Assembly (NCBI GenBank): GCA_009391535.1
Contig: VFHP01000009.1
Coordinates: 1 to 64,000 of the forward strand
Direction of reading: 5' to 3'
From: SAR202 cluster bacterium
GTDB lineage: Bacteria; Chloroflexota; Dehalococcoidia; Lucifugimonadales; UBA2985
Length of the DNA stretch: 64,000 nt
The notes under the pieces were generated by a model. The model saw only the letters and a program-made list of their open reading frames with translations. It did not search any database and had not been told where the DNA came from. This document shows, piece by piece, positions 32,438-52,700 of the stretch (position 1 is the first letter of the stretch; every line of letters begins with the position of its first letter). A program made the position numbers and the translations under genes.

Positions 32438-33658
32438 ATGGCTGCTAATAATAGAATTTTCTATGCCTGCCAAATGGTTGGGATGGCCGAAATGGGCGTT
32501 CTTGACTCCAGCGTCGTAAATGTAGCTGGCGCTGCTGGAACTGAAAAGATGCGAGTCGCTCACGGTGTCCAGAGTGTAGGCATAACAACAAACTTTAATC
32601 TAGAGCAGGCTTTCGAGCTTGGTCAGATTCAGATCTACGAGAACATCGAAGGTCTTCCAGATGTGGAAGTAACCATGGAAAAGGTTCTTGATGGATATGA
32701 ACTTTTATACCACCTAGCTTCACCAGCTCCAGAATCAGTAGGTTTGGTAGGTCGGTCAAAAGAAAGATGTGACCTTAGTCTTGGTATCTTTAGCGATGCT
32801 TATGACTCTGTTACAGATAGTGGGCAATCCACTGGAACTTTTGCGAGTGATCAGTACGGAAAACCCCCAGTAGAGGTCTTCTGCTCTGGTATGTATCTTG
32901 GATCTATCAGTTACACGATTCCAGTTGATGGAAACGCCACTGAATCCATCACACTTGTTGGTAACAACAAAGAATGGATCGTTGACCAAAGTAAGATGCA
33001 TATCACATCAAGTGGAGAAAAATTTGGTACGCAGGAGGGCTTCTCGGCAACTACAGACGCTTCCGAACCAAGAGCACTTACACAGGCTAGCGGTGGTATT
33101 CAAAGACGTGAAAACGTTCTGCTTTCCAGATGTATCTTCCCAAGTAAGATTTACGGCATGAACGGAGCGCTACCCGGTAACGCTTGGAACTCCACAACTC
33201 AGACACCAAGAGTTCACATTCAGAATATTTCGATTTCAACTGACTTCTCTCGTGAAGACATCTTGGAACTTGGTCGTAAGACTCCTTACTACCGTGCTCC
33301 CGGTTTCCCAATTGAAGTTACTTGTGATATCGAAGCAATTGCGATTTCTGGTGACTTTATCGGAGCTTACGAAGGTGGTGATCCCGCATTCTTTGCCGCT
33401 GGAAACAAAGCTTCTGGCGACAACACCGGTGAAGAAGGAATCAAGATTATCCTTCAGGATGGTACCTGCTTTAACCTAGGTTCTGGAAACAGACTGTCAT
33501 CCGTAAGTTACGGTGGTGGTGACGCAACTGGTGGTAATGTAAGTATTTCTTACAGCTATACTAACTTTAACGAGCTATTCGTTGGTCACACATACGATCC
33601 TGTTCGTGATACCAAGTATACCGCCCAGCAAAAAGCTGACACCAAAACGTGGGCTTAA
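32438..33658 (+). CDS. Major tail tube protein
   Basis: CAGGAGAGATAATA gives a strong ribosome site. The 406-aa product has RVAHGVQSVGITTNFNLEQ and an AFELGQIQIYENIEGLPDVEVTMEK region, read in two parts, which is the tube-type strand-loop pattern seen in large phages, followed by YELLYHLASPAPE. Further strands (VEVFCSGMYLGSISYTIPVD; RVHIQNISISTDFSRED) and a C-terminal VSISYSYTNFNELFVGHTYD fit a tube with a surface domain. It is directly followed by chaperone-position genes and the tape measure, as expected. The tube polymer sets the inner tail channel; tape measure length sets copy number. Confidence 0.78.
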   Translation: MAANNRIFYACQMVGMAEMGVLDSSVVNVAGAAGTEKMRVAHGVQSVGITTNFNLEQAFELGQIQIYENIEGLPDVEVTMEKVLDGYELLYHLASPAPESVGLVGRSKERCDLSLGIFSDAYDSVTDSGQSTGTFASDQYGKPPVEVFCSGMYLGSISYTIPVDGNATESITLVGNNKEWIVDQSKMHITSSGEKFGTQEGFSATTDASEPRALTQASGGIQRRENVLLSRCIFPSKIYGMNGALPGNAWNSTTQTPRVHIQNISISTDFSREDILELGRKTPYYRAPGFPIEVTCDIEAIAISGDFIGAYEGGDPAFFAAGNKASGDNTGEEGIKIILQDGTCFNLGSGNRLSSVSYGGGDATGGNVSISYSYTNFNELFVGHTYDPVRDTKYTAQQKADTKTWA

Positions 33659-33666
33659 GATATTTA

Positions 33667-33683
33667 GGCGACAACTTCTCGCC
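33667..33683 (+). other. Hairpin just after the tube stop codon
   Basis: GGCGA-CAACTTC-TCGCC, a 5-bp GC-rich stem with a seven-base loop, starts nine bases after the tube stop. There is no T-run, so it is not a classical terminator; it could stabilise the tube mRNA 3' end or pause polymerase. Confidence 0.55.
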
Positions 33684-33690
33684 AAGGATA

Positions 33691-33751
33691 AGCTATGTAG
33701 TTTGCGATAGCAACTATTAAGGATAGTATACAGCGAGTGTACTACATAGCT
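33691..33751 (+). ncRNA. 61-nt multi-hairpin RNA element (cruciform-like)
   Basis: An 11-bp perfect outer stem, AGCTATGTAGT (33691-33701) with ACTACATAGCT (33741-33751), encloses 39 bases that can fold into three small hairpins: TTGC-GATA-GCAA (33702-33713), CTAT-TAAGG-ATAG (33714-33726), and TACA-GCGAG-TGTA (33729-33741, sharing the last base with the outer stem). The result is a compact four-way junction placed immediately before a strong ribosome site. The arms are too short and the loops wrong for a tRNA. I call it a candidate regulatory RNA element. Confidence 0.55.
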
Positions 33752-33768
33752 AGGAAGGATTTATTGTA

Positions 33769-33816
33769 ATGATACATTGTGCTCCCGTCATGAGGTTTTC
33801 CGATGAAACAACATGA
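33769..33816 (+). CDS. 15-codon leader ORF
   Basis: The strong ribosome site AGGAAGGA (33752-33759) is nine bases before ATG 33769, which encodes MIHCAPVMRFSDETT and stops at TGA 33814-33816, 14 bases inside the next gene in another frame. The next gene's own ribosome site (GAGG) is weaker and hidden in a hairpin. A leader peptide that couples translation is therefore plausible. Confidence 0.45.
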   Translation: MIHCAPVMRFSDETT

Positions 33817-33823
33817 ACGGGAG
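33782..33823 (+). promoter_or_regulatory. Hairpin presenting the start of the 33803 gene
   Basis: CTCCCGT-CATG (33782-33792) pairs with CATG-A-ACGGGAG (33812-33823), an 11-bp stem with one bulged A. The 19-base loop (33793-33811) contains the ribosome site and ATG 33803 exactly. Ribosomes translating the leader ORF would open this stem, and a protein could also bind it as a translational operator. Confidence 0.5.
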
Positions 33824-34846
33824 TACTTTATATCTTGTGTTAGGTCTGGGATATTCTTTTTGAGGTACAGGGGTCTGACCTTAAAAGTACATAGTCCTAC
33901 AATAGAACAGGATATAGAGGCCTGCCGAGTATACAACGACGCCTATGATGAAGCCTATTTAGATGAAGTCATGGACGAAGGAGAAATGTTCGAGTGGATG
34001 GAGTACAAAGGTTTATGGACTGAAGAAGACGAAAGCCGTGTAGAAGGTTTAGAAAAAGACATTGAAAAATGTAAGATTGAAATCTACAGAGCCAGAAACA
34101 ATAGTGCCCAAAGAGAACATATAAGAAAGTATATTCGTGCAGGGGAAGAGCAAGAGTTAGAGATGATGCTGAAGAAGAATCAGTATCGTGCCAACACCTG
34201 TGAAGGTATGGCGGAACAAGCTAAGTGGGAATACATAATCAAGAACTGTACAACTCTCAACGGGGAGCTTTACAATTTTCAAGACGCCTCTCTTGACTAT
34301 GTGCTTTCCTGCTTTAGATCATCAATACTTAGCGAAGGTGAAATACGAGAACTGGCTAGGAGTGAACCTTGGAAGAGCTTGTGGGTTGTCTCAGATAAGG
34401 CTAGGAGTTCTCTATTTTACAACAACGACAGAGAACTCACTTTAGACCAGAAGAACCTAATCATATGGTCTAAGATGTATGATAATATTCAAGAATCTTT
34501 AGAGTGTCCTAACGACGACGTGATTGACGATAACGACATGCTTGATGGATGGTTTATTATTCAACGTAAGAAGAGAGAAAAAGAGAAGGCTGAAGCAGAA
34601 TTCGAGAGTGGCACCAAAAACGAAAAGATAAAGAACTCTCCCGAGATCTTTGTCATGACTACAAAGGAAGATAAATCCCGTGTCGAGAACATGAATGATA
34701 TTGGCGGAAGGATGACCATTAAGCAGAGAGAGGCTGCAATGCGTCAGAATGAAAGCGGTGTCACTACCCAAAACGAGTTCTTAGATGAAAAGCTTAAGCT
34801 TCAAAGGGCCGCAAACAGACAATATAAAGGGAAATTTGGAGGATAA
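33803..34846 (+). CDS. Tail assembly chaperone-position protein, long paralog (347 aa)
   Basis: Highly charged and helical, with acidic YDEAYLDEVMDEGEMFEWME, a WMEYKGLWTEEDE segment, and AEQAKWEYIIKNCTTLNGELY. The same ordered elements (K-G-I/L-W, then A-K-(F/W)-(D/E)-YI-(V/I)-x-NCT) recur in the gene at 35223, so the two are diverged paralogs. It sits between tube and tape measure, where tail chaperones that coat the tape measure are encoded. The start lies within a hairpin loop behind a leader ORF. No frameshift signal was found, so expression ratios are probably set translationally. C-terminal residues 265-347 are basic and disordered. Confidence 0.6.
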   Translation: MKQHEREYFISCVRSGIFFLRYRGLTLKVHSPTIEQDIEACRVYNDAYDEAYLDEVMDEGEMFEWMEYKGLWTEEDESRVEGLEKDIEKCKIEIYRARNNSAQREHIRKYIRAGEEQELEMMLKKNQYRANTCEGMAEQAKWEYIIKNCTTLNGELYNFQDASLDYVLSCFRSSILSEGEIRELARSEPWKSLWVVSDKARSSLFYNNDRELTLDQKNLIIWSKMYDNIQESLECPNDDVIDDNDMLDGWFIIQRKKREKEKAEAEFESGTKNEKIKNSPEIFVMTTKEDKSRVENMNDIGGRMTIKQREAAMRQNESGVTTQNEFLDEKLKLQRAANRQYKGKFGG

Positions 34847-34849
34847 GAG

Positions 34850-35230
34850 ATGGACAAGAACTATGCAGACCTGATAAGAAGCAGGTCCGATTACAAACAA
34901 AAGAGAACTGATAAGTTTAAAGCCGACTCTAAAGACAGGCTTTCCAAGATAATGAAGAAGAAGATAGAGACTACCATGATTGGTGCTCTATCTACTATAG
35001 AAGAAAACTTCGGATTCTTATGGACAAACGAGGACGGTTCTCCTTTAACAGAAGAACAAACTATAATGAAGGACTTATACCAAAAGGTTAGGTCTGAAAT
35101 TTTAGATAAGGGAAATAACCAAGCAAGGAATACTGATGCTGAGTTAGCTCAGTATGAAGTTGAGTGGTTAAAGTATTCTATGGAATTACCAGTTATCGCA
35201 AAAGAACGCGAGGAGGGACAAGATGGCTAA
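34850..35230 (+). CDS. Small chaperone-region protein (126 aa)
   Basis: Starts three bases after the previous stop and overlaps the next gene by eight bases. Basic, helical N-terminus (KQKRTDKFKADSKDRLSKIM) followed by a conserved-looking core: TMIGALSTIEENFGFLW, then VRSEILDKGNNQARN and AQYEVEWLKYSMELPV. I do not know a named family, but the core has the compactness of a folded helical domain. Its position among tail chaperones suggests it joins tape-measure or tube assembly. Confidence 0.6.
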   Translation: MDKNYADLIRSRSDYKQKRTDKFKADSKDRLSKIMKKKIETTMIGALSTIEENFGFLWTNEDGSPLTEEQTIMKDLYQKVRSEILDKGNNQARNTDAELAQYEVEWLKYSMELPVIAKEREEGQDG

Positions 35231-36122
35231 AAAAGAAACTCAAAAAGTTATAGAGATTGTACTGGATGACAGCAACCCAGATCAGAAGACAAAGGTTCTT
35301 GTTAAAAAACCTAGCAATAGGGTTCAGTCAGAAGCTGCTAGAATTGGTGCATTAGTTTGGACAAAATGTATCAAGGACGGCGTTATGACCAAGCAGGAGC
35401 TAGATGCCTTTATGAAAGAAAAAGGTATCTGGGGGGACGATAAAGAGAAGAGAAAAGAGCAGATTGCTCAGGAGCTTAGCGCCCTTGAAAAGAGGCTCTA
35501 CCTTGGTGATAAAGATGGAAACGTCAAGAGGGGCGGAAGAAAGAAGAGAATGAAACTTTCTGAAGCTAAAACTATTGCCTTAGAGATGAGAACCAAGAGA
35601 GCTGAACTTAGAGACCTGCTCGCTGAAAAAATCACGCTGGAAACCAATACAGCCGAAAGCCTGTCAGAGAATGCTAAGTTTGATTACATTGTAGCAAACT
35701 GCACATTCACGGAAGATGGGACTAGAAAAATCTATGCCAGTATAGAGGACTACGAAAAAAGAGCTGAAGACCCAATCGCGTTCAATGCCGCCGCAACACT
35801 AGCGGAAATGATGTATTCAGTAAATAAGGATTTTGAAGCCAAGCTTCCTGAAAACAAGTTCTTATCAAGATTTAAACTTGTTAATGAAGATCTTAGCTTG
35901 GTAAATAAGGAAGGCCAAACGGTTGATACCAAAGGCAATATAATTAACGATCTAGGCCACTATCTAGACGCCGAAGGTAATAGAATTGATTTAAACGGAA
36001 ACCCTCTCGACGAAGACGGTAACTATGAGTTTGCGATTCAATTCGACGACGATTTAGGCGTTGAAGAAGAGGCCGCAGAAAAAGCGGAAAAAGTAGAAGA
36101 AACAGAAGATACGGAAAGCTAA
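35223..36122 (+). CDS. Tail assembly chaperone-position protein, second paralog (299 aa)
   Basis: GAGGAGGGA before the ATG is a strong ribosome site. The MKEKGIWGDD and ENAKFDYIVANCTFTEDG elements align with WMEYKGLWTEED and EQAKWEYIIKNCTTLNG of the 33803 product, spaced similarly, so the two share a common helical domain. After about residue 225 it carries four turns of an acidic repeat (KEGQTVDTKG, DLGHYLDAEGN, RIDLNGNPLDEDGN) and an acidic tail. These D-x-x-G-N repeats resemble those in the 20126 product. It probably acts as a tail chaperone, with the C-terminal tail perhaps binding tape-measure segments. Confidence 0.62.
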   Translation: MAKKETQKVIEIVLDDSNPDQKTKVLVKKPSNRVQSEAARIGALVWTKCIKDGVMTKQELDAFMKEKGIWGDDKEKRKEQIAQELSALEKRLYLGDKDGNVKRGGRKKRMKLSEAKTIALEMRTKRAELRDLLAEKITLETNTAESLSENAKFDYIVANCTFTEDGTRKIYASIEDYEKRAEDPIAFNAAATLAEMMYSVNKDFEAKLPENKFLSRFKLVNEDLSLVNKEGQTVDTKGNIINDLGHYLDAEGNRIDLNGNPLDEDGNYEFAIQFDDDLGVEEEAAEKAEKVEETEDTES

Positions 36123-36161: not shown

Positions 36162-39100
36162 ATGTCAAGGTTTGTACTTACAGCACAACTACAACTTCAA
36201 GCCCCACGGAACGTCGGTTCTGTTGTGAGGCAAATGCAATCTCAGCTTAGCGATATTAAAGTTAAGGTGAGCTTGGATGGAGCTTCACGCACATCATCAG
36301 ATCTAAATAAGATCAACAAAGATGTTAAGAAAGTCACCGATTCTGCCAGCAGAATGGGTAAGGCTTTCGCCGTTTCCGTTAAGAGGTTTGCAGCATTTTC
36401 AATTGCCACTAGAACAGTTAGTTTATTTACTAACGTTATAGGTGGTGCTGTAGAAGAAGCTATAAATTTTGAAAGACAATTAGTTAAAGTATCTCAAGTT
36501 ACTGGAAAATCTCTATCCCAGTTAAAGGATCTTACTAGGGAGATCACAAGACTCTCCACTTCTCTAGGTGTGAGTTCTAGGTCTTTGATTGAAGTTTCTA
36601 GGACACTATCTCAAGCCGGTCTTGATGCTCAACAAACCAAGGTCGCCCTAGAAGCCCTAGCTAAGACATCCCTCGCCCCAACGTTTGAAGATATCACAGA
36701 GACAGCAGAGGGCGCTGTCGCTATCTTCAATCAGTTCGGACAGGGAGCTGAAGCTTTAGAGAAGCAGCTCGGCGCTATCAATGCTGTTGCCGGAAGATTC
36801 GCTGTTGAAGCCGGTGACTTAATATCTACCATCAGGCGTACCGGTGGTGTCTTTAAAGCCGCAGGTGGTAATCTCAATGAGCTGATTGCTCTATTCACAT
36901 CTGTAAGAGCCACCACGCGAGAGGCTGCTGAAAGTATTGCTACCGGTCTCCGTACTATCTTCACCAGAATACAGAGGCCTTCTACCATTAAGTTCCTAAG
37001 AGAGCTTGGTGTTGAACTTTTAAACGCAGAAGGTAAATTCGTTGGCCCGTTTGAAGCGGTTAAAAGATTAAGCGAGGCTCTTAGCGATATTCAGCCCGGA
37101 GATATCAGGTTTGTGCAGATAGCTGAACAGCTTGGTGGTTTCCGTCAAATCGGTAAAGTGATTCCTATGATACAGCAGTTTGCTGTAGCTCAGGAAGCGT
37201 TGAAGGTTGCCATGGATGGGCAGGACTCCCTAGCTCAGGATGCCATAGACGCCCAGCAAGCGTTGGCAGTCAGGATAACTAAAGTTAAGGAGGAATTCTT
37301 AGCATTAGTAAGGGCGGTGAGTGAGAGTGCAACCTTCCAGCTAATGGCCAATACAGCCCTATCTCTAGCGTCTGCCCTGATTAAGATTGCCGACGCACTC
37401 AAGCCTCTACTTCCTATGCTTACGCTCATGGCGGGCATAAAGATATTTAGTGGGCTAAAGAGTTTTGCCGGTGGTATAATGGGCAGAGGCGCTGCTACTC
37501 CACAAAAGTTTGCAACTGGCGGCGTGGTTCCGGGTAGTGGTAATAGAGATACCGTTCCCGCCATGTTAACCCCCGGTGAATTTGTTATCAGAAAGTCTAG
37601 CGTAAAGAAAATCGGCGCAGGCAATCTACAGAGAATGAATGATGGTGGAGTGGTTCTTGACGCTAAGTTAGCAGATGAATCTATGGGTATATTTGCCCTT
37701 ACAAGAAACAGAAAAGATACGGAAGGAGATCTTTCCGTTACCGAAACACCTTGGGGTTCGTACCCTATTACCAATAAGAAGGGCGGCATAACAGCGCTTA
37801 ACTCCAACTTTAGCCTTGGCCTGTCAAACACTGGCGATAAACTTTCTGCTTTTAAAAATCTTAACGGGGACCAACAACAGCAGCTATTAAGGGATGCTGG
37901 TGAAGACGGGGCGGCATTTCTCGAAAGTCTGGAACTTCCCCACAAACCAAACACGCGGGTTACTGGTAGCAAGGTTACAGGCAAACCCCTGAAAAACGCT
38001 TTGGCGGCAGGGACGGTTTCTGAAACCCAACTGTCAAACATCCTTCAGGGTATACAAGTTCCCGGTTCTGATATACCTGCCACAGCCACATTAAGAATAT
38101 CAGGAACGCAGAAGCAAATGCTGATTGGGCAGGCTCCCAATGACCCAAGTGACAGTTCCGGCTTGGTTGAAGCTGTTAGACAGCAGGTATATGCAAAATC
38201 TTCAGAAAAGCTAAAGGAAGCAGTTACAGAGTTAGTCGATTCAAATTCTGGTCCTATTGCGAAATTAAAAGCTGGCATAGAGCCAACTGTGGCATTTAAC
38301 CAAGGGGCTTTTGATGGCCATATAAGCAAGCTCGTAAAAAACGAACAAGGTGCTTACTCACAGGCTGTTAAGGGTATAGCCGGTTTCGTGCAGGAGGGAT
38401 TGATAGCTGGCGTAACCGGGGCAACGCTTGGTGGCGGGGGGACATCTTTTGACTTCCCGAATGTGTCAGCTCAGCAATCCCAATTATCGTCTCTCTACGG
38501 CGGCGACTTCTCAAACATGGAGAGTGGTGACGCAAAACCAACGGCTGCGCTTGACGAATTTAGAGCAAACGCAAAGAAACTAGCGGACTCAATTACAAGC
38601 AATGCCGATAACCGGTTTACAACAGCCAATGTGCTTCTGGCTGGTGTAAAAAGAATGGCTACCGGTGGAGCTGTTTCAGATACAGTTCCCGCTCTCCTCA
38701 CACCCGGAGAGTTTGTTGTTAACAGAAGTTCTGCTCGGAGGATTGGCTACGGTAATCTCCATAGAATGAACACTAAGGGAGTTCAAGGGTTTGCTTCCGG
38801 TGGAATAGTTGGAGGCCCAAGAACATTTGCTAATGGTGGTAGTGTTGCTAGGGAAAATGCAGTCCTTAGAAGTGAGCAATTGCAGAAGTTCATGATGTCG
38901 ATGGGGGCGGCAGCGACGGCATCGACTCTTGTGGCAGAAGCCTTCGCAAAACACGGCGCAGCTACCGAAGAAGATGCTGCACTCATAAGGGAGTTTGGCA
39001 GTCGCATAACAGCGGGAATCTCCATGTTTAGTGCTTTGAGCATTGCGATGGACGGTTGGAAAAACAAGCTGGATGATGCCGGAGATGCTGCTATAGAATC

Positions 39101-42100
39101 CGGGCAGGAGTGGGCAAAGGCTGCACAAAAGGCAGGAAAGAGCATAACGGAAATAGGTTCGATGGCTAAGCGGGGCGGGGCGACTGACAGGGAACGGGAC
39201 GCCAGAGCGCAATTAGCCCATTTAGGTGGAAAAAAGGCTGATGAGCAAATAGCCAAGAGAGGGCAAAAGAAATTTGACAAGCTCGGCAGACAGGACGAAA
39301 AGCTTGGTAAACAAGAAGACAAAAAAAAAGCACAGGTACAAGAACGAGAGGAACAGATTGAAAGACTTCAGATTGCGATTCATGAGAAGAGAACAAAGTC
39401 GAATGAAAATACAGGGCGAATAGATAAAATCGCAGACCGGCGTAGAGAACTGAAACCACAGCTACAAGAAAGAGAAGCTACGGCAACACAACTAGACAAG
39501 GAAATTAGAGGTAGGCAGAACGAAATCAAAGGCAGGACTCAAGCCAAGGAAAAGGCTGATCAAACCGTGGCGGAAACATTCCAGAGAGGTCAGGAGATTG
39601 CTACTGAGCTGGAAGATCGCGACAAGAAAACAAAGGGCTTAGAAAAATCAAGAGTCAAAAAAGAAAAAGAAGTAGATAGAAACAGACAGGGTGCGGCTCG
39701 GGCTGTTGAAGCTACACAGACTGCTAGGGAAGAGTTCCAACTAGACAGAGAACAAAGTAAACACATAAAAATGTCAGCCCCGCCGATGGCTAACGTTGGA
39801 GGACAATTCCGATCCAGAACTCCAGAAGAGCAGTCAGAGCTAGATGATGCAAAGGGAAGGCTGGAAAGACTACAACAAGGTCTACCGGCAGATGGAGGCG
39901 CTGTCGGTGGCGGTGGCACTGTTGCTCAGATGCAGGTTCAGGCTCAGCAGGTAATCATACAGGCCCAGTCTGTTACGATGACAGAGGGTGATGTCAATGT
40001 TCCTGTAGTGAAAGACGAAAAGGCGATTGCCGCTGCTGAAGCTGAGGTCGCATCCCTTAGCGGCCCAAGAAGACACGAAGCCGGTGCTGTCAGCACAACT
40101 AAAACGAGGGATCTAAACAAGGGAGAAATAGAAGCGCTGGGTGTGCAGCATGAAAAGGTTAAGACGCTCAAGCAGAATATTGCGTCAGGCGGTCCACTAC
40201 TACCCTCTACCCCGGAAGAAGAAGCGGCTGTATCTGGCAAAGTTGCTGACGAACAAGCTGCCGTTGACGCTCTAGCAAAAAGCCGCCAACAACTTAATAG
40301 TATTATAGAACAGCAAGCTCAGACTCAAGAAGAGATACGACAGTTGAGCCTAGAAGGTTTAGAAGTTTCCGAGGCTAATAAAGACGCTCTAGCAGAATCT
40401 TTGAAACAAGGTATTGCCATTAAGGATGCTAGAAGCGAATTGGCAGCAGCACTTGATGCCGAAAAAATAAATAACGAGCAAATTCGAGATATTCAAGATG
40501 AGATAAATGCCGGGATATCAGAAGAAGAAGCATTAATTAACAAAAATACGAAACTATACAAACAAATCGAAAAGCACAAAAACAATGAAGCCTTTGCTGC
40601 AAACGAAGTTAAAGAAATCAACAAAGAAATTCTAGAGATTGAAAAACAGAGAAAAGCTGTCCAAGACCAAATGGAAGGAGGGCCTGAAGGTCAGGCGATA
40701 CAGCATCGGGCAACAATGGTTGCCAACGCCGCCAGTCAAGCGGCAGGGGGTGGTGAGGCAGGTGATGAAGCGGCTGGCAAGGTGGCCGCTGGTATGGAGC
40801 GCATCGTGCAAGCTTCTGATGGTCTTACGGATCAATTCGGTTCTCAAGAGAAATTCCTCAAAGCCTATTCAACTGAGCTTTCGAGAGGAGTCCCAGCTAG
40901 CAAAGCTTACAACAGAGCTATGAAGCAGGCTGGTGTGAGCGCAAGCGGTAGTGCCAAGAAGACTAGCAAGCTTGGCTCTATGATGGCTACAGCAGGAAGT
41001 AAGATTAGAGGGGGTGCAAACAAAGTCGCTAGTGGTTTTGCTAAAGTAAACTCTAAGTTGGCCGGTATGGGTAAGTCGGTTGGCGCTGTAATGGCTATGG
41101 GTCAGCAGGCTGTTGCGTTTGTACAAGACTTACAGCAAAAACAGTTTGACAAAGCGCTGGAACAAGGCGACACAGCTACCGCTGAGGGCATGATTGGCGA
41201 TATGGGTAAGATGGATGCGGTTGGGGGAGCCATGAGCGGTGCTATGGCTGGCGCAGCCATGGGAGCTATGTTCGGCCCACTCGGAGCAGCTATTGGTGGA
41301 CTAGTAGGTCTCTTAGGAGGTCTTGCTATGGCTTTATTAGGCTTCGAGGCTAAATTTAAAGAGAGAGAAAAGAAGGTAGCCGCCGTAGAGATGAAGAAGG
41401 CGAAAGAGGCTACCGGTAAAGCGATGACAGATATATCTGAGAAGGGGCTATCGTCTAGTTCTGTGAAGGATGCTACAGCCGCCATTGATGCTCAGGGCGC
41501 TGCAATGAACAAGAAGTCGAAGCTGGACGGAAAGATGTTGCACTCAGATGAAGAACGTAAGAAGATGGGTGAAGAAATTGCCGCCCAAGAGTTACAGCTA
41601 GCAAGTGCTATAGGTTCCAGAGCAACTTCTGAGAAAGAACTCGAAGACGCTATGGAAGGACTCCTTAATAACACCACAGGTAACGCCAAGGCTGAGATGG
41701 ATGCGGCACGATCTGCATTTGCTGTAGCTCAAGCAAACAGGGCGCTAGCAAAGGCAAACGCTGACCTACTTAAGATTACCTCTGCATTCAATGCCGCAAC
41801 CAACGCTGTGAGTAATTTTGTCAAAGGTTTGGAAACTGGAACTAATAGATTTGATAGCATAGTTACAGACCTAGAAGAATCCCAGAAGAATATCGCTCTT
41901 GGTAAGGGTGGTGTTCAGGCTGTCGATAAAGCTAGAAGCGCAACAATGGAAGGTCTTAAAAGAGCAGGTCTTGATGAAACATCAGAGCTTGGCAAGTCTG
42001 TTGCCAGATCGTTTGACCAGCAAGAAAAAGCCGCAGAGTTCATGGCTAATATGCCTCGCAAACTAGACTCAATGAACTTTACTCAGGGAGACGATGCCGC

Positions 42101-43772
42101 TACAGTAAGAGATAAGCTGAGATCAGAGCTTATCACAGCCGACATGTCTGGCCCAATGAAAGATATCGTTGAAGGCCAGCTAGCTAAGCTTACCGACAAG
42201 CAGCTACAAGCCGTTGCAAGCGGCGAGATGGATATCTCTGAATTGCTGCAAGGCATGGGTAAAGACATTAGCAAGCTTGGTGCAGGAGCATTGGCAGCAG
42301 CTAAAGCCATGCAAGCTCATGAGCAGGCAATGATAGGTCTTACGCAGAAGAGAATAGCAGCCGAGAAAAATCTTATCAGCGCACAGATGCAGGCTGTAGA
42401 TGTCTTCATGGAAGCAGCCGACATACTTGCTCAGGTTGGTGGAGAAGCCGTTACTCCAGAAATGCGAACACAGGCAACCCTTGAAAAAGCAAACATAGCT
42501 GGAAGGGGCTTAGGTTTATCAGACCTTAAAACCGGAAGCGCCGAAGAGCTTCGCCAAAGAACTAATGAGATTATGCAGGAGTTTGGCAAGCAAGAAATTA
42601 AAGGCAGAACTCCGGGAGAATTTTCGGGAGCAGAGGGGCTTGACGCAGACAAGCGTGCCGAACTACAAAAAGCAATGCAAGATCAGATTGCTCTCCACAG
42701 AGATCTCATCAAGAACAAGATGGAAGAACTCAAGATTCTTGAGAAAAAGAATGCCCTCGAAAAAGAATCTCTAGAAGCCGCCCTCAAGGGTGACATGGAA
42801 ACATTCCTTAAGAAGCAGGCCGCTGCCGGAGCTACCGCAGCAGCAGCAACTGGCGACCAAAGGCTAATGAGAATGTTCGGCGCAGACGCTGTTGGCGAAG
42901 CGTTTAGCAATGTCCAGAGAATGCAGCAGGAAGGCGTGCAAGACGTAGAGGGCATGAATATAGATCAAGTCAAGGCTACCTTGGCGGCAACAGGTCTGGC
43001 AATGAGAGGCCTTGGCGATGATCCTAGAATGACAGACCTTCTTGCTGGTCAGATGCCTGAGCAGGAAAGGTTGAAGGGTGAAATCGGAGAGCTGGCTATG
43101 GGTATGTCCGATACAGCCCAAGCCGCAACAGAGCTTGCCGAGATGCAGGTTCAGACTGCAAACATGAACATCGCTCAAGCAAACCTCACCTTCCAGAAAA
43201 CCTTAGAGCACGGAGATGCCCAGTTCAGAAGATGGGGAGGTCCAATATATGCCAACAGAGGAATGTTTATTCCTAGGGGAACAGATACTGTTCCGGCAAT
43301 GCTTACACCGGGAGAATTCGTTGTAAGAAAGGAAAGCGTCAACAGGGGTAATAACCTGCAAATGCTGAAAGCCATTAATCAAGGTTCTTATACAGCAGGG
43401 TTCAGCGGGGCTGTTCAAGGCGTTCAAAGGCTGGCACGCGGAGGTAGGGTACAGTATCTTCAGGAAGGCGGCGTTGCTGCTGCCGCAGGAGCAGGTGTCG
43501 GAATAGACCCAGCACTTGTCAGTCAATTAGCGGCAAGTCTGGATAGATTCAATTCTGAACTTTCGTCCAATATAGCTTCCCTGCAAAACATGAAGTTCCA
43601 GATCAAACTTGATACTACAAACCTGAACGTAAACCTAAACGGAACAAGCTTCCTCGCCCAACTCAAAGACAGCTTAAAGCAGGAATTGCTGGCAGAAGTT
43701 GGAAACAGGATAAAAGATCTCAAGTTCAACAACGCTGGAGAACCTCAAACCAGCAGCAGTGTACTAGGATAG
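36162..43772 (+). CDS. Tape measure protein (2,536 aa)
   Basis: Sets tail length and is ejected with DNA. The N-terminus has the usual pattern INKDVKKVTDSASRMGKAFA, EEAINFERQLVKVSQVTG and ITRLSTSLGVSSRSLIEVS, followed by ISTIRRTGGVFKAAGGNLNE and ATTREAAESIATGLRTIF. The common tape-measure motif DTVPAxLTPGEFV appears three times, at residues 463, 840 and 2375. A long charged coiled coil covers about residues 1020-1220. A Gly/Ala-rich hydrophobic segment (about 1686-1730) may insert into membrane during ejection. At about 0.15 nm per residue the tail would be some 380 nm if the protein is not cut. Four or more long minus-strand ORFs lie opposite and are shadows. Confidence 0.92.
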   Translation: MSRFVLTAQLQLQAPRNVGSVVRQMQSQLSDIKVKVSLDGASRTSSDLNKINKDVKKVTDSASRMGKAFAVSVKRFAAFSIATRTVSLFTNVIGGAVEEAINFERQLVKVSQVTGKSLSQLKDLTREITRLSTSLGVSSRSLIEVSRTLSQAGLDAQQTKVALEALAKTSLAPTFEDITETAEGAVAIFNQFGQGAEALEKQLGAINAVAGRFAVEAGDLISTIRRTGGVFKAAGGNLNELIALFTSVRATTREAAESIATGLRTIFTRIQRPSTIKFLRELGVELLNAEGKFVGPFEAVKRLSEALSDIQPGDIRFVQIAEQLGGFRQIGKVIPMIQQFAVAQEALKVAMDGQDSLAQDAIDAQQALAVRITKVKEEFLALVRAVSESATFQLMANTALSLASALIKIADALKPLLPMLTLMAGIKIFSGLKSFAGGIMGRGAATPQKFATGGVVPGSGNRDTVPAMLTPGEFVIRKSSVKKIGAGNLQRMNDGGVVLDAKLADESMGIFALTRNRKDTEGDLSVTETPWGSYPITNKKGGITALNSNFSLGLSNTGDKLSAFKNLNGDQQQQLLRDAGEDGAAFLESLELPHKPNTRVTGSKVTGKPLKNALAAGTVSETQLSNILQGIQVPGSDIPATATLRISGTQKQMLIGQAPNDPSDSSGLVEAVRQQVYAKSSEKLKEAVTELVDSNSGPIAKLKAGIEPTVAFNQGAFDGHISKLVKNEQGAYSQAVKGIAGFVQEGLIAGVTGATLGGGGTSFDFPNVSAQQSQLSSLYGGDFSNMESGDAKPTAALDEFRANAKKLADSITSNADNRFTTANVLLAGVKRMATGGAVSDTVPALLTPGEFVVNRSSARRIGYGNLHRMNTKGVQGFASGGIVGGPRTFANGGSVARENAVLRSEQLQKFMMSMGAAATASTLVAEAFAKHGAATEEDAALIREFGSRITAGISMFSALSIAMDGWKNKLDDAGDAAIESGQEWAKAAQKAGKSITEIGSMAKRGGATDRERDARAQLAHLGGKKADEQIAKRGQKKFDKLGRQDEKLGKQEDKKKAQVQEREEQIERLQIAIHEKRTKSNENTGRIDKIADRRRELKPQLQEREATATQLDKEIRGRQNEIKGRTQAKEKADQTVAETFQRGQEIATELEDRDKKTKGLEKSRVKKEKEVDRNRQGAARAVEATQTAREEFQLDREQSKHIKMSAPPMANVGGQFRSRTPEEQSELDDAKGRLERLQQGLPADGGAVGGGGTVAQMQVQAQQVIIQAQSVTMTEGDVNVPVVKDEKAIAAAEAEVASLSGPRRHEAGAVSTTKTRDLNKGEIEALGVQHEKVKTLKQNIASGGPLLPSTPEEEAAVSGKVADEQAAVDALAKSRQQLNSIIEQQAQTQEEIRQLSLEGLEVSEANKDALAESLKQGIAIKDARSELAAALDAEKINNEQIRDIQDEINAGISEEEALINKNTKLYKQIEKHKNNEAFAANEVKEINKEILEIEKQRKAVQDQMEGGPEGQAIQHRATMVANAASQAAGGGEAGDEAAGKVAAGMERIVQASDGLTDQFGSQEKFLKAYSTELSRGVPASKAYNRAMKQAGVSASGSAKKTSKLGSMMATAGSKIRGGANKVASGFAKVNSKLAGMGKSVGAVMAMGQQAVAFVQDLQQKQFDKALEQGDTATAEGMIGDMGKMDAVGGAMSGAMAGAAMGAMFGPLGAAIGGLVGLLGGLAMALLGFEAKFKEREKKVAAVEMKKAKEATGKAMTDISEKGLSSSSVKDATAAIDAQGAAMNKKSKLDGKMLHSDEERKKMGEEIAAQELQLASAIGSRATSEKELEDAMEGLLNNTTGNAKAEMDAARSAFAVAQANRALAKANADLLKITSAFNAATNAVSNFVKGLETGTNRFDSIVTDLEESQKNIALGKGGVQAVDKARSATMEGLKRAGLDETSELGKSVARSFDQQEKAAEFMANMPRKLDSMNFTQGDDAATVRDKLRSELITADMSGPMKDIVEGQLAKLTDKQLQAVASGEMDISELLQGMGKDISKLGAGALAAAKAMQAHEQAMIGLTQKRIAAEKNLISAQMQAVDVFMEAADILAQVGGEAVTPEMRTQATLEKANIAGRGLGLSDLKTGSAEELRQRTNEIMQEFGKQEIKGRTPGEFSGAEGLDADKRAELQKAMQDQIALHRDLIKNKMEELKILEKKNALEKESLEAALKGDMETFLKKQAAAGATAAAATGDQRLMRMFGADAVGEAFSNVQRMQQEGVQDVEGMNIDQVKATLAATGLAMRGLGDDPRMTDLLAGQMPEQERLKGEIGELAMGMSDTAQAATELAEMQVQTANMNIAQANLTFQKTLEHGDAQFRRWGGPIYANRGMFIPRGTDTVPAMLTPGEFVVRKESVNRGNNLQMLKAINQGSYTAGFSGAVQGVQRLARGGRVQYLQEGGVAAAAGAGVGIDPALVSQLAASLDRFNSELSSNIASLQNMKFQIKLDTTNLNVNLNGTSFLAQLKDSLKQELLAEVGNRIKDLKFNNAGEPQTSSSVLG

Positions 43773-43782
43773 GGGTAGGATA

Positions 43783-46700
43783 ATGTCGATAGAGTGTCTT
43801 TGCGTAAAGCGCGGTAAGGCTTCTATAAGCTCACACGGTGGGGTTATTAAGGCTAAGATATCCTGTGCCCCTGCATGTGTCACCGGCAAGATGAAAGGTT
43901 CCGCCTCTATCAAGGCTGGCAATCGCAGAGAAAGAAATGGCTCTGCTAAGATTACAGCCGAATCCACAATTACTGGTGGTCAGGGTGTAGAATCCTACAA
44001 GATACCAAGAACAGAGAAGCCTAGAATTGGACTACAGGCTTGGCTTGGTGGAAGGTGGACTCCTCCAGATATCAACTCAGACCAGTGGACACCTCCTCAG
44101 TTTAAGCAAACTTTCGACGGTGGAGATTTTGTACACCTAGGTAAAAAGCTTAACCATGTCGGAGAGGGAGTCTTAACTCCGGGCCTTAGCGTTATATATG
44201 GGCTTAGAAGAAATATTAGCGCTGGAACAACTCTACGTTCCCCCTACACAGATAAGTTTGCTGGAGACTTCAGCGACTTTGGCTGTGCCCATAAGCTGTA
44301 TCCCATAAAAGATATAGATAATAGCTGGACTGGTGGCTATATTGTTGATGAAACCAACGATAGTGGAAACCTCTATCAAAGCGTCAATGAAGGTTTATTT
44401 ACCGGTAGCTACCATACAAACTTCGGGCAAAGCTTAAGGCTATCAGATGACCGCAACACATTCATCCAACCTTCAGCGGTATACACTGATGGCACCTTTA
44501 GATATAAGTTTGAAGTTACCAACCCTTCACACACAGCCAAGGATAGCAGGCTGTACCTAAGAGCCTCAGCCCCAAGACACAACTACTCTTCAGATACTCC
44601 GCCTAAGTATAAGATACAGGACATCAAGTTTGAAGACCCGTCAGGAAACCTAATAATCAAATATGAGGATATCATTCTTAGGGGTGACTCGGACTATAGT
44701 AGCTATAAGTATGTGAACTTTGCTACATACGGATCAAAACCTCAGAAGAATAACCTCCTCCTCCACACTTGGCAGTCTGGCTATCCTTATATGGAAGAGG
44801 GTTCTGGTTATACCGTCAGTTTTGAGATAGATGTTGAGTGTCTGGACGATCCATTTGACCCCGGTTTTGGTATAGGTTTTCAGGAGAGCTGTGAACTTCT
44901 TGACGCTGAAGTTCCTCATTCCGATAATGATTATCTAGCCCTTGATGGTTCTCCTCTAGCAACCCAAACTCAGCGGCTATCGTATCTAAACCCCACGAAC
45001 ACTATAAGAATCTCAGCCATAGAAATCTGTAATAGTGGAGGGTTTGAGACTCTCAGGGAAAATTACCTACCAATACACTTTGGCGTTCAAGCTAGCGGAA
45101 GAAGAATTGAACAATGTATACTTCCAAAGCTAATGCCAACATATGGATACGGAGTAGATAGTATCTATCCAGCAGCCAGTAGCGTATGGAGAGATGCTAA
45201 CGGAACTCTAACAAATCAAAGCGGTGTAGGCGCGGGCTACCTCACATCTCTCGTAGCGAATGAAAGTAGAATTCACGCTATAACAATGGACTCTACTAGC
45301 CCAGTAGCAGATTCAGGGAAGTTGTTCCTTGAATTTAGATCTACGCCTCCCAAACAAACTACTGACTGGAGGGGTGGAGACTTTGATATAGGTTATCTAA
45401 CCAATGACTTTAATGTGGCAAGACAGACCACCTTTACGCCGGAAGACCACACGTTTGAGGTCGATGAAATACGACTAGACATCCTAGCTAAAAAGAAAGT
45501 TGGCAGTCGAGATTATGCTTTGGATGTTGTCGGATGGAGTGACGACAAGCTCTTAAACGTTACATCTAGCGCTGGAGGATTCTTGCAGAACAGGTCTGGT
45601 GGTAACAACTTTGATCCCACCTCTTCAGGCTTTAATGTCACGGATGAGTTAGCCCTTGGTGGCGAAGCCTTGTCCGACAAGCATCAATACTACAAGACTA
45701 GTGGAACCAACAATGACGGCGGAGACCACTACATCTTAACAAACACGCCTCTCGTGACAAGTACCGCCTTCCAATGGTACGAAATACCGTTAAAAATATA
45801 CGAAGACACGGTAGAGGTTGGAAAGTCCCCAGCCTACAACCAAAGCTCATTTTTTGAAAAATTGTTTCTAGACATATTTCCATTTCCTAGCGGTGCTACT
45901 ATTGCCGCCGCCAAGCTTTGCGTTAAGTATAAGCCTCAGAACAGTATCAATCTGCATACCCTCGGGTATGAGAAGATGCATAGAATAAATAATATAAGGG
46001 CCGAATCTAAAATACGCCCATCTGTCAGATCTTCTACGGATGATATATTAAACGCTGGCTCCGGCTTATCCAGCCTGTCAGCCATATCTAACATACCCCA
46101 TGCCTACAAAACTCCTGACGACATAAAGTCTAACTACTCTAGGAGATGGAGGGGTATTGAGGGAATAGTTCAGGGTCCGTTTGACCCAGATGAATTCAAC
46201 TTTGGATTTAATAACCCGCTTCTTGACTACCCGTTCTTATCGGGATTCTACAACTTCTCAAACAATAGCTATGATCTAGGCATAGCTATAAACTCTGTAC
46301 CGCTAGGTTCTGGTTTCGGCAACACCAGCGGTATTATGAATACAACCTATGACGAATATTTATTCCAAAATATAGGCTGGAGATTCAATGATAGCGGAAT
46401 ATTCTCTCAGCAGTTACCCGGACTTAGTAGCTCCTACAGAACCACAGACTGGACATCTCTAAGTAATGGTTCGTTTGACTTTACGGCAGATCCTCTTTAC
46501 GGGAATATTGCAGACGCCTTTGATAGAGCCATCAGAGTCTCAGGAAGCAACTCGTATGTAGACTTTGGTCACATAGATACAACTAGCGGTTTTTCAATAT
46601 ACACAAGATTCACACCAGACGCAAACGTTAGCGGAGTAGGGTACAACCTCTTTGAGTCTGGAGTTATATTCTCCAAGTGGGATGCGTCTAAAGACTTAGA

Positions 46701-49700
46701 CTTCGCTCTTGGTTATGAAGGCGGATATCTATGTGGATACGCTAAGGATATAGATGACAATATAATTAAGGTTAAGGATACTATAAAATATAGTGCTTAC
46801 CAGTACCCGCTGTCAGTCATTCTAACATACAATGACCACCAGTCAAGCGGTCTTAAATTATATACTGACAACGAAATACACTCAGGAGTATTTAATACCA
46901 AAAGAGCTGAATCTAGCGCATTCTATAAAAAATCAGGCGACAGCAAGCTGATTCTAGGTAACTCGTTTGGTTCCGGTGTCGGCATGAATATGTTTGTGAC
47001 AGAATTTGGAATCGGAACGTGGCATGATTCTGAAGCCGGTTCTGGTTGTCATATAGTCGAATCCTCCCCAGACCTCACTGTCAAAGAAGTCACAGCGGAT
47101 AATTTCCTCAGAGGCAACAGGGTTAAATTCTGGGCTTCAGGAGAACCAGCCTCCAATGATAGATACGGTCTGTGGGACTACGTAAATGAAGATACCCTAG
47201 ACTGGGATCTTGGAGCGTTTAAGGTCTGTGAGTTCAGTCCAGACTTTGACTTCTTTACTAAGAGGGTCGGAAGAGACCTTATCTCAACAAGGCTCATTCA
47301 CGACGGATCGGGGTATACACAGAGGGTTAACCTCACTGTTCCTGCTTCTGTCAATCATTCAGGTCTGGCATACCACACTCAGATAGAAAATGACTTCTTA
47401 AGATTTAATCTTTCAGACGCATCCGACAACTTCTATACCGCCAATCACCCAAGAATTACCAAAGACTTACCTCGTGGCTATAAGTTTGCGGACAGAGCAT
47501 TCGTTGTCGAGACAATTCTGGAACACGAGACTCAAGACTTAATTTCTTGGCCGGATGGTAACTTAGGTCCGAAGCTGATAGTTAGCCTGTACACAAAGAA
47601 CCAAGAGCCAGTTTCCTACCCGACAGAAAACTGGGGTCTTATCAATAGGGATATACATTATCTCAAACCTTCTGGTTGCTGGAGGAGGATTGATAGCACG
47701 TTTACTTACGATAACTTCTTTGATGAATCTGAGGCTTGGGCGCTATTCCCATATGAAAGAAGGTTAACAGAGTTCAATAAGAAGTACTACTCGCAAGATG
47801 TCAATGATATGTTCTTGCAGTACGACTTGGTGTATCCTTCAGGAAGCGCGTTTGATTCTAGGATTAACATCCACAGCGCTCACGTAAGACTGGAAGATGC
47901 TTTTGTTAGTCCGACTCAAATGTCAGGAGAGGTTCCGTTAACTGTAAGTGGAGAACTAAGGCCTAGAGAAGTTCTTCCGATGCACTCTATCTCCATATGC
48001 CAGATAAGCAACAGGGAGTCAGGAGTTAGCGTTTGTGAAGATATACTTAGAGGATCAATACCAAGCGGTTTGTGTCTGTACACAGAAGGGCCGTTTTATG
48101 TAGATAATCTAACCACATCTAGTGGTATGGTTATGTATACCTCTGGAAATATTTGGAGTAGCGGAAACTCATCCTTGGCTCTATTGGCTTCTGGAAAATC
48201 TTTAGGGTCAGTAGGCGGAGCCGGATCGGATGGCGGCATTGATGATGATTTTGTAGGCCTTAATCTTTACGTTAGCGGAATGTTAAAAACTAATGAGCAG
48301 CTACCGCTATCTCTCCTGAATGACCAGACAACAATAACTTACCCCTACCCAACCCTAAACCTAAACACACATGCGTCTCAAGAATCACGAAGAGGATCTT
48401 TTGGTTACGTTCCTCTATACCTCAAACAGCACGAAGACATCAAAGAGACTTCCAGCGGAACTAATCTTAACTTGTTCACCTCCGCTATTGGTATCACATC
48501 ACAAGGATTCTCTCAAGGTTTTATAGGCCTAATAACAGCAGCCCCCCAGACAGTATCTGGAACAGCGCTTAATCTAACCCTATACAACCAAGTCAATCTG
48601 ATTCCAAATGTAAGTAGTGGTAACTTTAACCTACATACCACAACTCATGGGGCTGGCAATACAGCCGAGCTAATGAGATGGAGTCAGTACAACTATGGTC
48701 ATGAAATAACCATAGATGACAATAGCTTTGCCACACTGGATGCTGATGATGAAATTAGAGGCGTTGACTTAATTTGTTCAGCAGCCTGTGACGCAAGCGG
48801 AACACCAAACAAGTGTAACGAGAAAGAGATCTTCACACACAACGTTGTCTGGAGGGATAGTAACTGTGTAGACGGAGGTATCTTTAGACCAAGAGCAACT
48901 TACACAAACCTGAGCACACAAGGGTTTAATACAGACGTTGGATATAGCGGCCACTTCTACGGAATCAGAAAATACACAAACCTAGCTCCAAACTCTCCAT
49001 ATTACCTTACCATGAAGGGTACTACGGGAAGCACAAAGACTATCCCTGTAGGAAGAGATTTTGAAGAGTGGGAATATGGATCGGTAGATGATGTTCAATT
49101 CTCAGGCAATAAGTTTATCGCAGACTACCCATACATGAGTGGGCAAAAATCCTTAACCGCCCCGTCAGGCAGAACTTCTGGCGATTGGTACGGCAAGTCA
49201 GTTGCACTAACATCAGACATAATGGTAGTTGGAGCACCGCTACACGAATTTGACGAGATGGGCGGAACCACCTACTTCGACTCTGGCAACAACAGGCTAG
49301 AATGGATAGGCGCAAGCGGTCTGTACGAAGCTGGAGCAATGTTCCTGTACAGAAGAGGTGAACAGCCACAATCTCCCAACATGCACCCAAGCGGACACAA
49401 AGCTCCATGGACACTGGAATCCAAGATCGTGCTTCCGTCAGCATACAGAGGCGATTGGTTCCATACACACCCGGATGTTTTCTCGGTTGGTGGGATGCCC
49501 GCTCTACCTGTAAGGCAGTGGCACATAGGGCAAGAAGGCAGAAGGTTGGGTCACTCTATTGGAGTTGGATCAACATCCAACAACCCATCCCTAGGGGAAG
49601 ATAAAAGGGAGATTGTTGTAGCAGGTGCTCCTAGAGGTCATTGGGACAGAAAGTTTGACAACGTTGTTACTACGCCAATTAAGATTGCGGTAATGGTTTT

Positions 49701-52700
49701 CTCAGACGAGTTTGTATACAACGAGAAGAAAGCCGCTACTATCCTAGCAAAGCAGAACAAGCTTAACGAAATCTTTAAGTACTACTCCGCCGATCCAAGA
49801 AGCCTAGAAATAAATGTTCTTATATACGAGCCGACAGGGGTTGCGTCTCCAAATTCAGATATAACCACCAAAACTGCACCTTGGATACACCACGACCAAA
49901 TTCCAAGAAACACGTATTCTCACGGGGTGGTGAACAACACACTTTCCGTACAAAGCGGAATTACAGAGCTGTTCCACAGAGCTTTCCCATATGATGCATC
50001 ACTACCACTTAATGGTCTGCCACCTATTGTTGGCTTCTATGTTGATGATAGCAGATCTTTAGGCCGGGAGGAAGTGGAACCCGCAATAGACAACTTCGTT
50101 AATTACTATAAATGGTATAGCCATGCTAGTGGTGTGCAAGATGTTTACGGAACGGTAGATTCTGGTCATATATACGAATATAAACCAAGCAGAGGAGCTG
50201 CTGAAGATTGGCTGTGGATGTCAAACACATTGGTGGACAACCTTCTTGATACCGGAAGACTGATCGAAGACAACGGGTTAAGGTTTATTACAAGTGGCGT
50301 AGGACCAGAGTTCCAAAATCCAAACCTCACAGAATTCAACAGACCTCCCGCCAGTGGTGGTAGAGCGTATATCTTTGAAAAAGAAAGCGGCGTATGGAAT
50401 CTTATCCAAGAGATATCTAGGAAGCAACTGGTTAAAGAGTTTGATATCGGCGGTGGTACCACTGGCGAAGGAGATCCTTTCTACGATGATGCAGCGCACT
50501 ACGAATATGATTCCTTTGGACATGCGGTTGCTATCAGTGAGAATACTGAAGTCATATCAATAGGTTCGCCATATAGCAATGAGGCTTGTGTTGTATTTGA
50601 ACACGACCCAAGTGAGAAAGATAGACTTTACAGGCACTTGCCTCTATGGTTGAGATTTAAAAAATCCACTGATACCCACTATGAGACCATATATAGTAGG
50701 TGGGAAGTATACCAAAGAAGCCTTGGTGATACAGAAGCATCAAAGAAAATCTATCTCGAATTAACACCAAGTGACAAATTCACACTTAGAAGCGACCCTC
50801 TGTACTGGGATAGTATCAAAAGTGACCCAATTAGAGAGTATAAAAAGGTATATCAGTATAATTACTCAAACATAGGGCACCGAGGTACTTGGCAGTTTAT
50901 TCCTAGTATCTACGCCCCAACATCAAGACTGGGTTGGAGTACCGCCGTAAGCGAAGATGGAGACACTGTAATATTTGGCGCTCCTACAGACAGCTTTAAT
51001 GAGTTTGACGACACAAACGTTTACTATAAACCAAACAACACTTGGGCTTCCTATGTGAACGCTGGAGCGGTGAGAGTGTTTGAGTCTAGAAAATACCATC
51101 CACACTCCGGTGTCGTAGAGTTTTACAAGTTTGGAAATCTTGATGAGAGCCGAAGAGCTATTGCAGATAGAGGTGAAGATTACAGCGACATCAAGCACAC
51201 CTTTGAGACCCAAGGTATTCCGTTCAGGAGAACCGGCTTCTCAGAAGTAGAGATACCAAAGAGTGCTGGGTTGGCATTTATTATAACGCCGGAGATAGAT
51301 GCTGCTAGCGATGAAGTCATAGAGAACATTAAAGATTGGCTCGCTCTGGGGGACAGGACGCTTGTTCTGGTAGGTAATGACCCGGAATGGGAAGGCAATG
51401 GGGCTTACAAACAGTCTAATGAAATAGTTAACAAAATCCTGTCCAAGCTATCTTCTAGAATGAGAATACATCCGGCAAGAAATGAATTCGAGTCGTTGCC
51501 CGGATGCGCTCCTTCAGGCAAGCCTAATATACTTCCTTCGTTCAGACCTACCGGAGGTAGACTGACAAGTGTTCAGACTCCTAAAATGTTTGGTAAGGGC
51601 GTGGGTGATATACGCATGCACATCCCAACATGGTCAAAATTAAATTCCCCCTGTGATGATCTCAATGACAAGTGCGAGCTTCCTCTTGACAGGTATGGAG
51701 ACCTCAGAGCTGAATGGCAAAGCGAATGCACAACCAACGGCCCAAAATGTAACAGGGGCGTCAAGTATAAAACAAACTGGCCTCTGCATTTTGGTACAGT
51801 TCCTTGGCCTTGCGATACTCGATGCACCCCTGACCCAAGAGCAATGATAGGTCCAAACGAAGAGCCTAAACCTCTCCTCGTTGCTGCGGAAGAGATTCCA
51901 GAGAAGGTTACTATATATCCAGCTTGGGAAGAATGCTGGACGGAAACCATATACTGTAGAAAGTGGGTTAACGACGCACCCCTAGTCACTTGGAAATTTG
52001 GAGACCCGGTAGGCGATATCCAATTTGCTTGGAGCGAGAAAGATACTAACTATACATCATCTGACAGAGCTAAGTACATAGATCCGCCTGAGTACGAAGA
52101 TAGAGACGGACTCATAATGGCAGAAGCCTCATCTAAAGACGACGATCCGCCTATTAGGTCGCAAGAAGATGTATATCCAGATTCAACTATAGTGGCAAAA
52201 GAAGACTGGGCTGGAAACAATACATCTAAAGTTGTAATGATTGCAGGAGTAACATCTGAGTCAGAAGGAAACTTAATACAGGGTTCCTACGACTACAACA
52301 TATCCTTCTATCTAAATTTGGTAGGGAAAGGCTGCAATTCAGTACATCTTAAAAAGGGAAGTATTGTTCAACTAGGAGGTTGGACTAAGAGGTCTAGCTT
52401 CAGGGACGCTTACAAGGCCTCCTGCTTGGGATCATACACAACCAGTGACGGGAAAGAAAGTAATGGTATATTCAGACAATACGGAAATGTGCTCATTGAA
52501 AACTTTGTGGTTGAGGAGACAGAAAGAGAAGGAAAGGGCATTGATGATGTTCACAATGTATGTTGGATAGCTAATGCAAAAGATATTCCAACCGCAGAAG
52601 ATATTAAAGATATCAAGGAGTGGATGGATAAAGGTAATAAAACACTGGTCATTACTTATGCAAATTCTATACCTTGTGGTGTGTCTGATGAAGCTTGCCC

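Follow-up and report, generated by a model that had tools for sequence, protein, structure and literature searches.

In most long-tailed phages, frameshifting is believed to fix the proportions of the tail chaperone forms. In phage lambda about 192 tube subunits make up the finished tail, whereas the tail chaperones bind to the single tape measure and do not form part of the virion (PMC5009743). Short upstream ORFs whose sole task is to bring in a ribosome, with coupling through the unfolding of a sequestering structure, are known in bacteria and have been reviewed (PMC12548453), and coupling by such unfolding has been engineered (PMC11602170). Here we describe an uncultured phage family that appears to control the junction between its tube and chaperone-position genes by a translated leader acting independently of its peptide, and whose relatives seemingly do so by terminators.

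The window, that is, the whole stretch of 64,000 nucleotides that was analysed (contig VFHP01000009.1, positions 1 to 64,000, forward strand), lies in a 93.7-kb contig (C9, 93,671 bases) of a 1.36-Mb assembly filed as a SAR202 cluster bacterium. A second related phage of the family was noted in this assembly (G000) on contig C7 (152,655 bases). At least part of the bin is phage DNA, because two related phages sit on different contigs, and since the second of them is on another contig, membership of the assembly does not indicate the host. Relatives in named assemblies are spread across unrelated phyla. One tail tube relative was seen in a record of 4.94 Mb that bears the name of a Heimdallarchaeota chromosome (L227; CP070695.1, 42986-54083), where it may represent a prophage-like insertion or a misassembly. 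DNA and protein similarity searches against 50,697 annotated phage records gave no match, and relatives were found in IMG/VR on about 300 contigs of uncultured phages. From 206 loci we extracted 91 distinct tube-to-ORF1 junctions at first and 144 later; the loci are metagenomic, the counts given below enter related sequences separately, and the arm-swap and slid controls retain part of the relatedness. The junction and its neighbouring genes have the following features:

32438..33658, + strand: tail tube gene, 406 aa; fold matches of its AlphaFold model to solved tail tubes
33667..33683, + strand: hairpin H1, 5-bp stem and 7-nt loop, then AAGGA; from the sequence and relatives
33691..33701, + strand: 5' arm of element stem P1, AGCTATGTAGT; arm-swap score and double changes
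33703..33711, + strand: 5' strand of the element core (U-G-C, GAUA internal loop, GC of P2); invariant columns
33720..33723, + strand: AGGA in the element loop, a near-clade feature; GGA columns at least 90% conserved in alignment A3
33733..33739, + strand: 3' strand of the element core (GC of P2, RA internal loop, GUG); GC and AGT invariant
33741..33751, + strand: 3' arm of P1, ACTACATAGCT; evidence as for the 5' arm
33752..33759, + strand: leader SD, AGGAAGGA; GGA-to-ATG spacing 4-11 nt in 41/42 element carriers
33769..33816, + strand: leader ORF, 15 codons, MIHCAPVMRFSDETT, stop 11 nt inside ORF1; present in 42/42 element carriers
33779..33826, + strand: hairpin H3, 33779-33788 paired with 33817-33826 and extended by CATG/CATG, loop with TGAGG and ATG; covariation, z=-4.0
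33791..33795, + strand: internal SD TGAGG of ORF1, within H3 and the leader ORF; TGAGG(T) in most relatives
33803..34846, + strand: ORF1, chaperone-position gene, 347 aa; 291 relatives in IMG/VR
34850..35230, + strand: ORF2, 126 aa, no function assigned
35223..36122, + strand: ORF3, 299 aa, paralogous to the N-terminal portion of ORF1; 27% identical residues across 135 aa, E=4e-12
36162..43772, + strand: tape measure protein, 2536 aa; PF10145 PhageMin_Tail, E=1.8e-24

The AlphaFold model of the tube protein (pLDDT 71) matches the tail tubes of SH-Ab15497 (8xan, E=1.7e-8) and P74-26 (8ed0, E=6.9e-7) as well as those of T5 (9iny, E=2.6e-5; pb6, 5ngj, E=1.7e-3). ORF1 has no match in Pfam or PHROG and its model (pLDDT 84) has no significant fold match in the PDB or BFVD, so that its designation as a chaperone is positional. 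ORF1 and ORF3 are separate genes whose similarity recurs in relatives; ORF3 overlaps ORF2 by 8 nt and starts at an ATG with an SD of its own. On the 3' side of the tape measure gene we noted one uninterrupted reading frame of ~4050 codons (43783-55944). The earlier note on this DNA, made from the sequence alone, had seen no frameshift signal here and had suggested that the leader might replace ribosomal frameshifting. We likewise found no overlapping ORFs with a slippery site, ORF1 ending at 34846 and ORF2 starting at 34850. A frameshift from the leader into ORF1 was also considered and rejected, as the two are in different frames, the ORF1 frame is closed upstream by a TGA at 33791, and relatives vary in the frame that their leader uses. 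Replacement of frameshifting by the leader is plausible rather than established: ORF1 and ORF3 are separate paralogues outside any overlapping frameshift arrangement, and may perhaps fill the roles that G and GT take elsewhere through frameshifting, but the chaperone role on which the suggestion depends is positional.

About 40 distinct relatives share the order tube gene, H1, ~60-nt element, strong SD, leader ORF, H3 and chaperone-position gene, and nearly half of the first 91 junctions have the series from H1 to H3. Apart from the three inner mini-hairpins of its element (see below), the dense leader that the earlier note had described was located within 33667-33826, comprising a GC-rich hairpin (GGCGA, 7 nt, TCGCC), a 61-nt element (33691-33751) with a perfect outer stem of 11 bp, a strong ribosome site, a leader ORF of 15 codons (ATG at 33769, TGA at 33814-33816) and a hairpin whose loop holds TGAGG and the next ATG at 33803. 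A 172-nt stretch of the junction folds at -54.7 kcal/mol, 4.7 sd below dinucleotide shuffles, none of 200 of which were as stable; taken alone, the element (z=-3.2) and H3 (z=-4.0) are also more stable than shuffles, and pairing is conserved in relatives for the outer stem of the element and for the RBS hairpin, stability and conservation being the two points on which the earlier note had made its reading depend. What it had presented as a single leader consists of separable modules. A translational control leader at the junction is well supported, because of the covariation of the RBS hairpin and the selection on the leader ORF. No Rfam match at gathering score was obtained for this region of the window and four relatives. 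A tRNA-like cloverleaf was rejected, ARAGORN finding no tRNA in the region, as was a hammerhead-like reading by eye of CCCGTC..GATGA..GAA, which lacks stem II.

The ten-pair stem of H3 has standard pairs in 680 of 720 cells across 72 distinct sequences, and none of 1000 column shuffles or arm swaps exceeds 645; it contains 60 double changes, these controls averaging about 25.5 and never exceeding 39. Alternative pairs among relatives include CTCCCG/CGGGAG, TTCCCG/CGGGAA, AATCCC/GGGATT and CTCTCGA/TCGAGAG. The 3' arm is formed by codons 5-8 of ORF1, and covariation occurs at freely variable sites of this coding arm (GAG/GAA, CGG/AGG and similar); part of the arm is fixed by conserved ORF1 codons, which weighs against the coupling explanation proposed below. 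At -28.9 kcal/mol, the ORF1 start (-35..+35) is the most stable among the 37 predicted gene starts in the window, for which the runner-up is -17.5 and the median -8.2 kcal/mol. Over 76 relatives the start region averages -26.3 kcal/mol, and only -6.9 kcal/mol without the 5' arm. H3 is present in a further 34 distinct sequences that lack an intact element. A structure therefore covers the ORF1 RBS, and we infer that it blocks initiation.

Taking as leader ORF any reading frame with a start after an SD-like sequence and upstream of the 5' arm of H3, we found one with an SD in all 42 distinct element carriers (41 ATG, 1 GTG), of 7-17 codons and with its stop between -10 and +11 relative to the ORF1 start. 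An ATG lies between the last GGA and the arm in 41 carriers, compared with 9.1 expected from shuffling the segment, and in 24 of 33 members of the element-less group, compared with 3.8. Without exception (41 cases) the leader frame stays open to the end of the 5' arm, whereas the other two frames are interrupted in 46 of 82. A conserved leader peptide was rejected: the peptides are unrelated among relatives and use three frames, the same DNA motif being read in different frames, which indicates selection on being translated and on stop position and suggests that the leader acts by peptide-independent translational coupling. A long leader is not required everywhere, because nine of 34 element-less relatives have no ATG, GTG or TTG leader (among them L039, also without a recognisable 5' arm) and several others have leaders of only 1-7 codons, in L077 a single codon (ATG-TAA). 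ATA or ATT was noted at the usual distance behind AAAGGA in L071, L080, L085, L086, L167, L177 and L190, and such non-AUG codons could serve as starts in relatives that lack ATG.

The ~60-nt element is best described from its alignment as a rod, with a variable covarying stem (P1), invariant G.U and C-G pairs, a GAUA/RA 4x2 internal loop and a short inner stem. P1 has 42 distinct stem sequences in 42 copies, whose flanks are wholly different and still pair. Its mean helix score is 8.2, compared with 4.6 (sd 1.4) after an exchange of 3' arms between relatives, and a score of at least 6 is reached by 86% of real but 15% of arm-swapped stems. On an alignment that was not fitted to structure there are 150 double-change cells in P1, against 80.6+-8.1 in shuffled and 68-103 in slid controls; a model-fitted alignment, biased towards the structure, gives 140 against 66.6+-7.5. 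RNAalifold on a MAFFT alignment did not find P1, probably due to stem offsets that differ between sequences, and arm-swap and pair counts were used in its place. In the 41 aligned copies of A3, GC, G, TAG ... GC, AGT are invariant, as are the core pairs G-U and C-G (41/41). The inner stem P2 is GCN/NGC with a covarying third pair (U-A, C-G, U-G), and the loop beyond it holds AGGA in the near clade, its GGA being missing from most distant-clade copies. The three inner mini-hairpins that the earlier note had drawn in the element were rejected; the outer pairs of the first show no more covariation than shuffles do (7 double-change cells against 5.8) and relatives favour the rod. In the distant copies L239, L259, L264, L267, L270 and L272 the inner loop often reads CCTTGGC or CCTTGAC before GGCRAGT, and these motifs could pair with a downstream AGGA. 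The H1 hairpin is not significant by itself in the window sequence (p=0.3), and a hairpin in its position is significant in 26 of 42 distinct element carriers, with a loop mostly of 7 nt. H1 stems were seen to vary in L010, L042, L067, L083, L197 and L219, the 7-nt loop very often being GNNNTNR, followed by GGA.

The element occurs at a single location. A covariance model identified a single strong copy in each of 12 phage records among the 20 searched, one record having a second, weak match (E=0.04), and 27 of 28 matches to exact patterns over all IMG/VR are at the tube junction. The near-clade pattern accounts for 21 of the 28, 20 of them between tube and ORF1 homologues, with two (L054, L057) on sequence pieces that contain no ORF1 and, for L057, no tube either; all seven matches to the distant form lie directly behind the tube (L061 included). 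L008 has a second pattern match in a tape-measure-like region. Elsewhere in the window's assembly, L042 is the same junction in the related phage contig, and L041 is a match whose surroundings contain no gene of the junction. H1 and the element are attached to the tube gene, behind its 3' end, the leader ORF and H3 accompany the ORF1 start, and each pair is found without the other; in L238 and L244 the element stands behind the tube although a different gene comes next. In a quick, midpoint-rooted tree of the ORF1 protein the element is probably old, with losses, because it is found on either side of the deepest drawn split and requires about 10 changes. In the distant clade the element core lies behind, and often inside, intrinsic terminators (H1 with a U tract) and H3 is absent; the element stem there is often GTCAG/CTGAC, often followed by a U tract (L278, L257, L318). 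In the window no intrinsic terminator (hairpin and U tract) was found at H1 or the element. The 144 distinct junctions comprise 33 with a terminator and no H3, nearly all of them in the distant clade, 75 with H3 and no terminator, 35 with neither, as in many distant relatives, and a single overlap (L058), which has a weak U tract and is doubtful. This near-exclusion follows clades and may reflect few events, and the clade pattern fits a replacement of transcriptional by translational reduction. On the best reading of these sequences, the junction would lower downstream expression relative to the tube, by terminators in one clade and by H3 with the leader in the other.

We consider it probable, taking the explanation as a whole, that a cis-acting leader couples translation of ORF1 to a throw-away mini-cistron and that the element is an older, separate module. 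With its start (TGAGG and AUG) in the loop of H3, ORF1 would hardly be open to direct initiation. A ribosome would instead load at the strong upstream SD, translate 7-17 codons through the 5' arm, open H3 and stop within a few nucleotides of the ORF1 AUG, where the same ribosome or a newcomer could then initiate. The positions of start and stop would matter and the peptide would not, the expected outcome being that ORF1 is made at a fixed level below that of tube, and an imbalance between tube and assembly helper like that of lambda may be needed here. The element would most likely modulate the amount of downstream product, perhaps by binding a phage or host factor; it could be a fixed spacer, a 3'-end element or a factor-binding domain joined to terminators or to the leader according to clade. 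More speculatively, and in our view rather unlikely, it could represent a new class of regulatory RNA domain (GAUA/RA core) that senses a tail-assembly or host factor and is joined to two outputs, in which case the tube-to-chaperone output would be regulated and not merely fixed.

The anatomy of strong SD, short ORF and hairpin over the next RBS is equally that of translational attenuation of the erm/cat type, in which a leader peptide stalls the ribosome on a signal and the stalled ribosome opens the hairpin. Stalling needs a conserved nascent peptide, however, whereas the leaders here are unrelated, use three frames and range from 1 to 17 codons, and we give attenuation very little credence. 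RNA phage coat proteins bind translational operators, and the start codon in the H3 loop resembles these, so that H3 could be an autoregulatory operator to which ORF1 or another tail protein binds, thereby repressing its own translation; the leader would then be a bypass or incidental. The nine relatives with H3 but no usable leader ORF would be accommodated in this way. Conservation of H3 consists mostly of covarying pairing in the stem, however, and most of its loop is dictated by SD, start and codons. Selection on the leader ORF is clear, and ORF1, having no fold match, carries no mark of RNA binding; an operator thus appears unlikely to us.

Two further proposals concern the element and its surroundings more than the leader. 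GGA in a hairpin loop together with GGA in an SD is the pattern of CsrA, and the GGA triplets behind H1, within the element loop and in the SD could be sites of a CsrA/Rsm-like host repressor, the loop GGA being 90% conserved in the near clade. This we hold to be quite improbable, as 16 phage records contain no CsrA gene, most distant-clade copies lack the loop GGA and AGGA is also the plain Shine-Dalgarno core. There is a serious possibility, if short of an even chance, that element and H1 are mainly a transcription device (terminator, attenuator or protector of the tube mRNA 3' end), with leader and H3 as a separate translational device; this competes with what we propose for the element and not with the coupling. 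The distant-clade H1 is an intrinsic terminator, the element stem there is often followed by a second U tract, and the element keeps its place behind the tube even with another gene next (L238, L244). In the window's clade, on the other hand, a U tract is missing from both hairpins, and translation is suggested by the AGGA loop and by the direct abutment of the element on the leader SD, although the two readings are compatible.

The coupled leader that we favour is probably how these phages make much tube and little assembly helper, and the junction would be a natural counterpart of the engineered bicistronic design or synthetic coupling element (PMC12548453, PMC11602170). The two share a strong SD, a short ORF with an irrelevant product, a second SD inside that ORF, a stop near the next start and a ribosome-opened hairpin over the second RBS. 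Unlike the engineered design, the junction is natural and lies between phage tail genes, its geometry is conserved while frame and peptide drift, and it is preceded by a conserved structured element; unlike a TAATG overlap, its stop is often 11 nt inside the next gene. The attenuation leaders of erm and cat also have a leader ORF and a hairpin sequestering the next RBS, but the junction has neither a conserved stalling peptide nor a known inducer. The G/GT frameshift of the lambda tail chaperones (PMC5009743) occupies the same genomic region, between tube and tape measure, and may answer the same requirement for products in different quantities, whereas here the genes are separate, ORF1 and ORF3 are paralogues and control is located before the first of them. 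With the cis-regulatory RNAs of Rfam (riboswitches and protein leaders) the element shares a covarying stem round an invariant core, a single location and expression contexts that depend on clade; unlike them it has no Rfam match or known ligand or protein and its downstream gene is a phage tail gene, and it thus adds a structured RNA family absent from Rfam, found at one location in the genome.
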